Below are positions 8,728-12,107 of a DNA stretch of 36,319 nucleotides, one piece after another (the first letter of the stretch is position 1; each line of letters opens with the position of its first letter). This stretch comes from Nitrososphaerota archaeon (GTDB lineage: Archaea > Thermoproteota > Nitrososphaeria_A > Caldarchaeales > Wolframiiraptoraceae), in the NCBI GenBank assembly GCA_021163925.1, contig JAGGTD010000062.1:1-36319 (forward strand), written 5' to 3'. Both the position numbers and the translations under genes were made by a program. Below the pieces are notes generated by a model. That model searched no databases. It was not told where the DNA came from and worked only from the letters and a program-made list of their open reading frames with translations.

Positions 8728-9504
8728 TCAGACCTCGATCACATCTAAATCCGAGGGGATATAAACTAATCCGCCCGACGCCCTTCTCAAAGACTCTCTT
8801 AAGCTCTGGACTCTTCCCTCCATCTCGGGATAGAGGTGAACCGCTACCGTGATCCTCGGCCTGATTCTAGAGACGATCTCGATAAGCTCCTCATCGGATG
8901 TATGTTTCCCGAGCTTCCGGCCGCTTGGATAAGAGCATTCATGAATCAATACATCCACGTCCTCCGCCAGCCTGATCAATCTCTCATCGGGCACTGTGTC
9001 TCCAGAGTAGACGAGATCGATTCCATCAACCCTAATCCTATATGCGACGCCGTTAAAGTGTTCGACTGGGACAGATCTTATCTCGAGCCTCTCATCGGCG
9101 GCCACAACTCCATCCCAGCACTCGTGGAGCCGAATATCTCTCAGAACATCGAGATTCATTAGATAGCTTAGGAATCTATTCTTGAGCAGTAGGTCTTCGA
9201 TGAAGTCATTCAACCCCCTTGGGCCATAAATGTCGAGAGGCTCTTTAAATCTTCCATAACTTTTCCGGCTTAAACCCCTCATCTTAAGGAATGGTAGCAG
9301 ATCTGAGACGTGGTCTATGTGGAAGTGTGTGATAAGAATCCTGTTTATAGTCTCCAAGTCATACCCAATCCTCTTCAACTTCTCGATCGTCCCGGGTCCT
9401 ATGTCGAGCAGGATTCCCCCCAAGCTTGTCTCCAGTAGGATGGATGATCCAAACCTTTCCCTAGTTGGGATTATCGTTCCAGCTCCCAAGACTATTATCC
9501 TCAA
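8728..9504 (-). CDS. Metallo-beta-lactamase fold, RNase Z-like hydrolase
   Basis: MRIIVLGAGTIIPTRERFGSSILLE, LITHFHIDHVSDLLPFL, VYSGDTVPDERL, LIHECSYPS, HTSDEELIEI. Start is 2 nt from the stop of the upstream gene. Confidence 0.87.
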   Translation of the reverse strand: MRIIVLGAGTIIPTRERFGSSILLETSLGGILLDIGPGTIEKLKRIGYDLETINRILITHFHIDHVSDLLPFLKMRGLSRKSYGRFKEPLDIYGPRGLNDFIEDLLLKNRFLSYLMNLDVLRDIRLHECWDGVVAADERLEIRSVPVEHFNGVAYRIRVDGIDLVYSGDTVPDERLIRLAEDVDVLIHECSYPSGRKLGKHTSDEELIEIVSRIRPRITVAVHLYPEMEGRVQSLRESLRRASGGLVYIPSDLDVIEV

Positions 9505-9505
9505 C

Positions 9506-10225
9506 TCACTCTCTCCTCGACAAGATATCTATCCATGGATTATCGACGAGATATGATGGAAGCCTCTTGGAACTCGGTTTAACCCGCTCCTCGATTTTGG
9601 GAGTTTCACGAACCCTTACCTCAACCTTTGAAGATCTCTGCTCGATCCTATTCACTCTGATCTCAAGACTTCTCTGCGCACGCTCAAGTCTATCGAGCCT
9701 CGCCTCAAGCTCCTCAAGCATCCTAAGGATTCTCCCGATATCGGATCTAATCCTAACGATCTCCTCGACGCCGACGGCTTTCTCCTCCATCACTGTATTG
9801 GAGCTTTTCACGACCTCAACCCTCTCGGAGAACCTTGGGGGAACCACTTCCTCAGCACCCATCATATCATAGACTATCAGTCCTAGGCCATGCATGGATA
9901 GGACTCCATCGTCCACAGCTCTTCTAAACCTTCTCGGGATGGCTATCGCGACCCCACTATATCTCTCTCTAAGCTTCTCGGCTTGGAGGAGGGCGTCGTG
10001 GATCGCTCCGTGAACCATTAAGGTGTCTTCATCTAGGATGTTTACGGCTAGCTCGCGTCTCCCATCAGATAATACTATTCTACTCGATGCTCCTAGGATC
10101 CCCTCCTCCCTTCTCTCGACCTCATAGAATCCCTCCTCCTCGTAGATCGCGGCCACCAAGTCTTCGGGCTTAAACCTCCTATGCAAGGTATAGCCACCCC
10201 TCCATCCTATTCCAATTCCACTCAT
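9506..10225 (-). CDS. Crenactin-linked protein: restriction-endonuclease-like (possibly inactive) N-terminal domain, coiled coil, conserved-looking C-terminal peptide
   Basis: ORF overlaps the crenactin 3' end; start uncertain (ATG 10225 or an internal TTG/GTG). N-terminal pattern SDGRRELAVNILDEDTLMVHGAIHDALLQAEKLRERYSGVAIAIPRRF; heptad-rich RILRMLEELEARLDRLERAQRSLEIRVNRIEQ; C-terminus LPSYLVDNPWIDILSRRE. Confidence 0.75.
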   Translation of the reverse strand: MSGIGIGWRGGYTLHRRFKPEDLVAAIYEEEGFYEVERREEGILGASSRIVLSDGRRELAVNILDEDTLMVHGAIHDALLQAEKLRERYSGVAIAIPRRFRRAVDDGVLSMHGLGLIVYDMMGAEEVVPPRFSERVEVVKSSNTVMEEKAVGVEEIVRIRSDIGRILRMLEELEARLDRLERAQRSLEIRVNRIEQRSSKVEVRVRETPKIEERVKPSSKRLPSYLVDNPWIDILSRRE

Positions 10226-11456
10226 AGTCTATTGGAACCGCGTATCCATAGACTATACATCCTCTCCAGACCGAGAATCTAGGCTCCTCGGTTATCCTCA
10301 CCTCTACATCCTCTATCCCTTTCTCGTGGAGCATTGATGAGAGTTTCAGGTCTGAGGTCACCGCAACCTCCTTGAGGTCTTCTGGAACCCTCCAGCCGAA
10401 GTTTCCGCCTGAGAGGAGGATCTTCGAGTATAGGTGTGGTTGAAGCTCTATCGGACACTTCTCAACTGATTCTATGATGGCGTCGGCCATGTCCATCATC
10501 CCGTAGAAGAATGTGTCTCCGATCTTTATGTCGCTGGGCTTCGGCATCCCCCTCGCGAAGTAGCTTTGGAAGATCTCGTGATTCGGGTTAAAGACATATT
10601 CCCCGACTAGGAACCTAGTCCATGAATGCTCCCCCAAGTCTATCACTATCCTAGTTCCCGGGATCTTTAGGCGGCCGTGAACCTTCTCGGGATTAGCCTT
10701 GGCATAATCTATTGCAGAGTCTAGGTCTCTTGGAAGCAGTCCGAGCTCCTCCTTAACCCTCCTAACGAGACTCTCCTCCTTGGCTAGATCGCCGTATCCA
10801 GCGTCCTTCAAGATCTCGGCCATGAGAGTGTTAGCGGAGCCCCCACCCCTATTCAGGGCCAGAACCGCGTCCCTTATCGGATACATGGAGATAGGGCAGA
10901 TCTGGCTATTTCCATGGCCTGATTCGACGACCACGCATGTCGGTATCTTGTGAGCTATCGCGACCGCGAGGGGCTGTGGGATTATCGTCGCCGCCTTGAC
11001 GAGAGTTCTCTCCTCATTCATCTTCTTGAAGATCTCGAAGAACTTTTCATACATGTATCTCGGCGCGACCATCGATACGCTGGCCACGAGATAGAATCCA
11101 TCGAACTCCTCATCCCTTGGGGCGAATGACTCTAATGCATATCTGGTCAATTCTTCGACGACCCTCCAAGCCCTCCAATCATCCTTTCCGATCACCCCAT
11201 TCTTCATAGGATAAACCATCCTCTCGGCTAGGCTCTTCCTAGACTCCAAGAATAGTGGGAGCTCCTTTCCAACTATTATCTCCCTCCTGATATCCATGAG
11301 CCTCGACATCAGCGACTCCTTATCCACGAAGTATCCCCTATTCTCGACGACCTCTGGGGTCTCTCCTAGAGTTATCGGGCCATACTTGAAGTCGCTCGTC
11401 CCATAATCTATCCCGAATACGTGTTCGCGCTTATACTCCTCGCTCATCTCCCCCAC
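10179..11456 (-). CDS. Crenactin (archaeal actin homologue)
   Basis: HVFGIDYGTSDFKYGPITLGE (phosphate-1), TCVVVESGHGNSQICPIS (phosphate-2), ILLSGGNFGWRVPEDL (adenosine), RFSVWRGCIVYGYAVPIDYEWN...EGW; matches recalled Pyrobaculum crenactin along its length. Confidence 0.93.
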   Translation of the reverse strand: MGEMSEEYKREHVFGIDYGTSDFKYGPITLGETPEVVENRGYFVDKESLMSRLMDIRREIIVGKELPLFLESRKSLAERMVYPMKNGVIGKDDWRAWRVVEELTRYALESFAPRDEEFDGFYLVASVSMVAPRYMYEKFFEIFKKMNEERTLVKAATIIPQPLAVAIAHKIPTCVVVESGHGNSQICPISMYPIRDAVLALNRGGGSANTLMAEILKDAGYGDLAKEESLVRRVKEELGLLPRDLDSAIDYAKANPEKVHGRLKIPGTRIVIDLGEHSWTRFLVGEYVFNPNHEIFQSYFARGMPKPSDIKIGDTFFYGMMDMADAIIESVEKCPIELQPHLYSKILLSGGNFGWRVPEDLKEVAVTSDLKLSSMLHEKGIEDVEVRITEEPRFSVWRGCIVYGYAVPIDYEWNWNRMEGWLYLA

Positions 11457-11980
11457 CCCATTATCCTGGATAGGATTGATGATTTAGGGGCTCCGCAAAG
11501 CTTCTCATGAACCTTCAAAACCGCGCCCCTCGAGACCTCAGCCCATCCAACCCTATATGAGATCGTCAAGGCTTTATGCGAGGGATACGCCGAGACCTTG
11601 AGATCTACCCCAGATAACTTGATCTCGAAGACTCTTTTCTCCTCAAACATCACCCCAAGGGCTTCCGCGACTTTTCTCGCCTCATCACCCCTAAAGTTAT
11701 AATAGATGTCGATATACCAGCAGTCCCTAATTATCGATCTAACGAGGTCTTCGAGATGCTTAGACTTCTTCAGGCTTAGGCTTAGCATGAACTCATCTCT
11801 ACTCGGGTTTAGGCCTAAGAGCTTGACGATGGATCCATCGAGCTCCGCGATCCTCCCCTCAACCCTCCAGCCTTCTGGGAGAAGCTTGCTGAATAGCTCC
11901 TCATCTCTAACCTCAGCCCTATCCCTGAGCTTGCAGACCAGTCTAAGCTTGTTGACGGGGTTGTTCACGTTCCTATCCAC
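11444..11980 (-). CDS. Uncharacterised protein, first gene of the crenactin cluster (possible arcadin-like partner; not assignable by eye)
   Basis: GTG-start ORF of 178 aa overlapping the crenactin start by 13 nt; TATA-like AAAAATATAT (minus strand) about 26-35 nt upstream. Confidence 0.75.
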   Translation of the reverse strand: MDRNVNNPVNKLRLVCKLRDRAEVRDEELFSKLLPEGWRVEGRIAELDGSIVKLLGLNPSRDEFMLSLSLKKSKHLEDLVRSIIRDCWYIDIYYNFRGDEARKVAEALGVMFEEKRVFEIKLSGVDLKVSAYPSHKALTISYRVGWAEVSRGAVLKVHEKLCGAPKSSILSRIMGWGR

Positions 11981-12107
11981 TAGCTAAAATACTTGGCGTC
12001 GATCCATATATTTTTGAGAGTTGGCTGAAAGTGAAGCACCGTGCTCAAGACACAATCTTTATTAGAGGATTTTTAGAGCTGAATTCGGAGCCTGAAAGTG
12101 AGTAGCT

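Follow-up and report, generated by a model that had tools for sequence, protein, structure and literature searches.

We analysed contig JAGGTD010000062.1 (36,319 nucleotides, hereafter the window) of assembly GCA_021163925.1, a Nitrososphaerota archaeon of the Wolframiiraptoraceae (Caldarchaeales), which carries a gene for the actin-like protein crenactin. Judged by sequence, the surrounding cluster is a crenactin ('arcade'-type) operon with the gene order p178 – crenactin – arcadin-2, and the C-terminal tail of its arcadin-2 recurs on DNA-binding and plasmid proteins of other crenactin-bearing archaea. Comparisons were made with two genome samples, one of 61 relatives and one of 398 genomes of the phylum Thermoproteota. 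The locus comprises the following features (ORF, open reading frame; aa, amino acids):

12004..12015, minus strand: TATA-like element AAAAATATATGG ahead of the operon, read directly and identical in the sister species
11444..11968, minus strand: p178, 174 aa from GTG 11968 (ORF opens at GTG 11980), placed by its conserved position upstream of crenactin
10179..11447, minus strand: crenactin, 422 aa from ATG 11447 (ORF opens at GTG 11456), from phmmer, NF053560 and Pfam Actin matches
9506..10186, minus strand: arcadin-2, 226 aa from TTG 10186 (ORF opens at ATG 10225, 239 aa), from hhalign, position and C-terminal motif
9842..10168, minus strand: predicted arcadin-2 N-terminal domain with a PD-(D/E)XK-like fold and without the catalytic acidic residue (Foldseek, 44 sequences)
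9626..9790, minus strand: predicted coiled-coil helix of arcadin-2 (AlphaFold2), covering residues 146-200 in the numbering of the 239-aa ORF
9509..9562, minus strand: putative crenactin-binding tail of arcadin-2, LPSYLVDNPWIDILSRRE, with invariant columns, corresponding to P. calidifontis arcadin-2 residues 187-203 in 5LY3
8728..9504, minus strand: metallo-beta-lactamase (MBL)-fold RNase Z-like paralogue, 258 aa, below the TIGR02651 cut-off; a neighbour and probably not a crenactin component

The initial annotation had described four same-strand genes, crenactin being the second, with overlaps or 1-nt spacing behind a TATA-like element. All four ORFs and the element are present; three of the starts were corrected. 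Crenactin most likely begins at ATG 11447, in a 4-nt ATGA overlap with the stop of p178. The start of p178 is probably GTG 11968, because one nucleotide is missing between GTG 11980 and this codon in the sister species, and that of arcadin-2 is probably TTG 10186, since its relatives begin there. The predicted element AAAAATATATGG (12015-12004) has the same letters in the sister species. This identity is no specific evidence for a promoter, because the intergenic region, which also serves the divergent EF-2 gene, is well conserved along most of its length. Compared with the sister species, all four genes are under purifying selection, with dN/dS values of 0.024 for crenactin, 0.069 for arcadin-2 (239-aa ORF), 0.12 for the MBL gene and 0.16 for p178 (178-aa ORF).

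The identities of crenactin and arcadin-2 are close to certain. Crenactin aligned over its full length (residues 1-423) with Pyrobaculum calidifontis crenactin 4cj7 (phmmer E=6e-114), and its closest record, in the metagenome-assembled genome (MAG) AUK008, shares 95% identity. The best model was NCBIfam NF053560, at 560.9 bits against a curated cut-off of 630; no other actin model came near that score (Pfam Actin, 3.3e-15), and we read the shortfall as expected of a divergent clade. Crenactin was found in 45 of the 61 relatives and in 128 of the 398 phylum genomes. The 239-aa protein is, on sequence criteria, the known regulator arcadin-2, because it occupies the same position directly downstream of crenactin, has a homologous N-domain (hhalign against P. 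calidifontis-type arcadin-2, 97.8%, E=1.2e-12) and ends in an invariant tail that matches the crystallised peptide. The tail reads LPSYLxDNPWhxILS, and the arcadin-2 family of the window keeps LPS[YF]xxDNPWhxIL at its C-terminus. Crenactin is followed by arcadin-2 in Thermofilaceae, Bathyarchaeota, Culexarchaeia, Brockarchaeota and Caldarchaeales. The presence of arcadin-2 in Caldarchaeales had already been noted (PMC9723716); the new part is the detail of its N-domain fold.

One locus among the relatives (L068) encodes arcadin-1, crenactin and a 203-aa protein ending RGGIGENEWVKILRSKR. We take it to be from P. calidifontis or a near-identical species, because these 17 residues, R187-R203, equal the limits of the P. 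calidifontis arcadin-2 construct bound to crenactin in crystal structure 5LY3 (PMC5173319). That peptide lies in the hydrophobic groove of crenactin, competes with the D-loop and depolymerises filaments (PMC5173319). As this was solved for the homologue, the DNPW tail of arcadin-2 very likely inserts into the same groove and controls polymerisation. Foldseek matched the AlphaFold2 model of the N-domain to XisH (2inb, probability 1.00, TMt 0.55) and also to PaqCI. Its E-x-K acidic position is hydrophobic throughout 44 sequences, so that the catalytic D...(E/D)xK pattern is absent and the modelled domain is probably a non-catalytic DNA- or protein-binding one. It is followed by a 55-residue predicted coiled coil and a predicted C-terminal helix (AlphaFold2) that bears the invariant Trp motif.

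The placement of arcadin-2 varies: in Terraquivivens and in Caldarchaeaceae-type genomes its gene precedes that of crenactin, and in Calditenuaceae it is unlinked yet present (loci L110-L118, L121, L127, L136 and L140 against L135-L141, L177 and L178). In many Bathyarchaeota-type loci (L101, L102, L108, L113, L122, L123, L125, L043) arcadin-2 is followed by a gene of about 92-103 aa, possibly another component of the cluster; its L043 member has a zinc-ribbon-like cysteine cluster.

A search with the arcadin-2 profile gave, unexpectedly, short C-terminal matches in unrelated proteins. A hidden Markov model (HMM) of the tail (28 columns; threshold E<=1e-4 in the phylum sample) matched 42 of the 61 relatives, every one of which carries crenactin, and 112 phylum genomes, of which 108 have crenactin. 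Among the 270 crenactin-less genomes, only 4 had a match: three (G279, G315, G326) are incomplete MAGs and the fourth, G240, matched weakly (4.6e-5). Crenactin genomes lacking a match belong mostly to the P. calidifontis family (f13), whose arcadin-2 ends in a NEW variant. No match was obtained in 11,719 reversed ORFs. Thirty-eight tail-positive genomes hold two to five matches; arcadin-2 of Thermofilum pendens (G139:C2:480849-481019) appears to contain two tandem motifs, so that in at least this genome two of the matches lie in a single protein. At all 40 extra loci sampled, the tail ended an ORF (0-9 residues from its C-terminus), and the genes lay away from crenactin rather than beside the actin gene as parR does. 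We found no paper describing this shared tail, subscription papers and preprints lying outside the search.

We infer from these sequences that the arcadin-2 tail is a portable crenactin-binding peptide, and consider it likely that the tails in general bind the crenactin groove. They might alternatively bind something else that co-occurs with crenactin, such as a degradation factor, the crystallised tail being of the divergent NEW type of Pyrobaculum; we regard this as improbable, since in most lineages the neighbour of crenactin is an arcadin-2 with a DNPW tail, a homologue of the partner that was crystallised.

The domains that precede the tail at the 40 sampled loci are diverse. Nineteen proteins share a helix-turn-helix (HTH) with a near-invariant TVYKALYKYRK, five have C2H2 or zinc-ribbon domains and five have no assigned domain; with weaker Pfam support, about five are winged-helix-like, four ribbon-helix-helix (RHH)-like and two MazE/AbrB-like. 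Each of the 17 HTH-tail proteins that were aligned is recognised by Pfam HTH models, and the RHH domains include a MatP-like one. The ParR-type combination of a DNA-binding domain with a C-terminal tail is therefore seen, at the sequence level, in some tail proteins and not in every one. When a 22-residue tail query was searched against 72,556 PLSDB plasmid records, only two matched, both archaeal: pTPEN01 of Thermofilum pendens (TPEN_RS09445) and pHA1 (gp42, ending LPSFAQDNPWLGILSKKH). These matches are weak by BLAST E-value, yet both clearly pass the tail HMM. In IMG/VR, one tail pattern found no contig and a second found three, in none of which the motif HMM matched in frame; phage records gave no tail.

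Within the window's own family, extra tail proteins occur at L171 645-1031, L173 718-954 and L172 near 2800. They comprise a C2H2 zinc-finger protein (Wolframiiraptor gerlachensis) and a 78-aa or fragmentary protein beside a RelE-like gene pair, possibly belonging to a mobile element.

The gene upstream of crenactin, p178, apparently represents a separate, unnamed family. Its members occur in 31 of the 398 Thermoproteota genomes, in every case immediately upstream of crenactin and on the same strand, a linkage far beyond chance. They span Caldarchaeales, Brockarchaeota, Bathyarchaeota and Culexarchaeia, and form three subfamilies: one of Wolframiiraptoraceae, one of Brockarchaeota and relatives, and one of Bathyarchaeota, Culexarchaeia and a Caldarchaeales family (f3). 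These are joined by hhalign at 82-96% (E 1e-5 to 2e-9; control, 2%). The neighbouring EF-2 gene runs divergently in some genera and in the same direction in another. No match to p178 was found by sequence in PDB, Pfam or NCBIfam. Its AlphaFold2 model consists of two beta-alpha-beta(3-4)-alpha halves (mean pLDDT 87, pTM 0.81), and the members from Culexarchaeia and some of those from Bathyarchaeota are extended at the C-terminus by an RHH-like segment (in L104, a sub-threshold match to Pfam RHH_1 with E=0.0023). Three candidate identities were rejected: arcadin-1 (hhalign probability 0.5%), whose homologue lies on another contig (G000:C18:11827); arcadin-2 (hhalign control, 2%); and ArpC2, a Foldseek match at rank 49 (E=0.07) that we ignored as noise.

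A functional tie between p178 and crenactin is highly probable, and because the two are so strictly co-located, the data suggest a direct partner, perhaps a nucleator, a cap or a DNA-side factor. Its sequence distribution would make p178 a partner of crenactin that is truly new and conserved over a wide range. The initial annotation had proposed both proteins flanking crenactin as lineage-specific regulators. Homology and synteny agree that both are evolutionarily tied to crenactin, and the comparison of flanking genes that it called for supports this for each of them. The regulator assignment holds for the 239-aa protein, which is the known arcadin-2; lineage specificity is contradicted for both, p178 being spread over several class- or order-level lineages.

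Our overall explanation, which we hold with moderate confidence, is a crenactin operon together with a portable tail carried by ParR-like adaptors. Thymosin beta4 runs in the reverse direction relative to both arcadin-2 and ParR (PMC5173319), and these two therefore share their orientation in the groove. The crenactin groove is unoccupied on monomers and at one end of the filament; for this reason, tails clustered on DNA would catch monomers or that end, as ParR does for ParM. Arcadin-2 would present the tail on a coiled-coil body whose PD-(D/E)XK-like domain is catalytically dead, and other crenactin archaea would present it on HTH, zinc-finger, probable winged-helix and RHH proteins and on two plasmid proteins. 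We infer that arcadin-2 and the HTH, zinc-finger and RHH tail proteins may be ParR-like adaptors, which would hold specific DNA to crenactin monomers or filament ends. The location of arcadin-2 between segregated nucleoids, as cited in PMC9723716, is compatible with this role. Whether DNA tethering is the job of the tail proteins is close to an even call, and a role for crenactin in DNA segregation falls slightly short of one. More tentative still is the fullest version, in which crenactin is a host actin that segregates or anchors DNA through a ParR-like adaptor family, plasmids use it for their inheritance and p178 is a core component.

Several observations weigh against this explanation. 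Arcadin-2 is the only tail protein for which binding has been shown experimentally, and Pfam support is weak for the winged-helix assignments and for most of the RHH ones. No clear centromere-like iterons were seen in six regions upstream of HTH-tail genes, nor upstream of the pTPEN01 tail gene. The window's own assembly (81% complete) yielded no further tail protein, and Pyrobaculum has mostly arcadin-2 alone. For the p178 model, Foldseek against PDB returned nothing convincing, with TBP-like and AdoMetDC-like topologies among the matches (TM <=0.40). Finally, the in vitro depolymerisation of crenactin by arcadin-2 or its peptide (Kd about 31 nM; PMC5173319) fits a sequestering regulator equally well. 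The tail proteins could then be pure polymerisation regulators that only sequester or cap crenactin, as thymosin-beta4 and WH2 analogues, in the service of cell shape or division, to which crenactin is commonly tied, DNA binding being incidental. We consider this unlikely, though a serious competitor; it leaves unexplained the repeated fusion of the tail to unrelated DNA-binding domains and its carriage by plasmids. Somewhat less plausible is that the HTH and zinc-finger tail proteins are transcription factors that sense free crenactin, as MRTF does with G-actin. Most of the sampled tail-protein domains do have folds typical of transcription factors, and binding of the tail to monomers is expected, but the plasmid tail proteins have no recognisable transcription-factor domain and arcadin-2 itself is not a typical transcription factor.

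The initial annotation had also suggested that the MBL hydrolase belongs to the crenactin transcription unit. Its 1-nt spacing in the window and its linkage to crenactin in three genera would agree with this, yet orthologues elsewhere are unlinked: in the sister genus Terraquivivens (g4; for example G004 and G010) they lie tens of kilobases from crenactin, and the crenactin loci of other families are without the gene. Functional membership is thus unsupported and very improbable, and we rejected the gene as a conserved cluster member. We also rejected it as a bona fide RNase Z, for which it scores 113 bits against the TIGR02651 cut-off of 293 and matches the model only at positions of about 2-148 and 201-262, the middle missing; each of the 20 other genomes examined encodes a separate, genuine RNase Z that scores above the cut-off. 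We treat the MBL gene as a neighbouring RNase Z-like paralogue that is probably no part of the crenactin system.

A second, divergent crenactin type (53-54%) was observed at L067 (G020:C27, 5487-9017) and L151 (540-4116). At L067, and similarly at L151, a VWA-domain protein is encoded upstream and a protein ending LPDAAxDNPW downstream; the hydrophobic N-terminal segments of the latter at L067 suggest a membrane-anchored crenactin tail. Seven divergent loci (L158, L160, L161, L164, L165, L169, L170) have an upstream gene resembling O6-alkylguanine-DNA methyltransferase (PCHRV motif), with arcadin-2 not adjacent to crenactin. In Methanomethylicus and other divergent loci (L147/L148, L162, L167), long partners of 288-626 aa end in LPD/NxxxDNPW; that of L148 is a coiled-coil protein.

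Reviews have proposed cell shape or division as the role of crenactin, arguing mainly by analogy and from the absence of FtsZ/ESCRT (PMC7613921, PMC7617429). With a putative crenactin-binding tail that is defined by sequence and occurs on DNA-binding and plasmid proteins, a third role, DNA handling, becomes directly and cheaply testable, and p178 adds a missing partner for biochemistry. If our explanation is true, a system of portable peptides that bind actin arose in archaea separately from the WH2 motifs of eukaryotes.

The window shares with the arcade cluster of Thermoproteales (P. calidifontis crenactin and arcadins 1-4) the arcadin-2 gene directly downstream, its N-domain and its groove-binding tail. 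It differs in that p178 replaces arcadin-1 upstream, the arcadin-1 homologue being on another contig, arcadin-3 and -4 are not downstream, and the tail is DNPW instead of NEW. The likeness to type II partition (ParM-ParR-parC) lies in an actin-like filament and in DNA-binding adaptors with a C-terminal actin-groove peptide of shared orientation (PMC5173319). In contrast to that system, the genes for the putative tail adaptors mostly lie apart from the actin gene, differ in kind and occur several to a genome, no centromere was found, and one host actin, crenactin, would serve both chromosome and plasmids. Eukaryotic WH2 and thymosin-beta4 motifs are likewise short, portable actin-groove peptides on many proteins, but they show no sequence similarity to the archaeal tails and thymosin is reversed, whereas in archaea the tail stands strictly at the C-terminus, in most cases that of a DNA-binding protein. 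In the AlpA-AlpC system of corynebacterial prophage CGP3 (PMC5539076), too, an actin-like protein and a DNA-binding adaptor move the DNA of a mobile element; that prophage encodes its own actin, whereas the archaeal plasmids described here appear to use the crenactin of their host.

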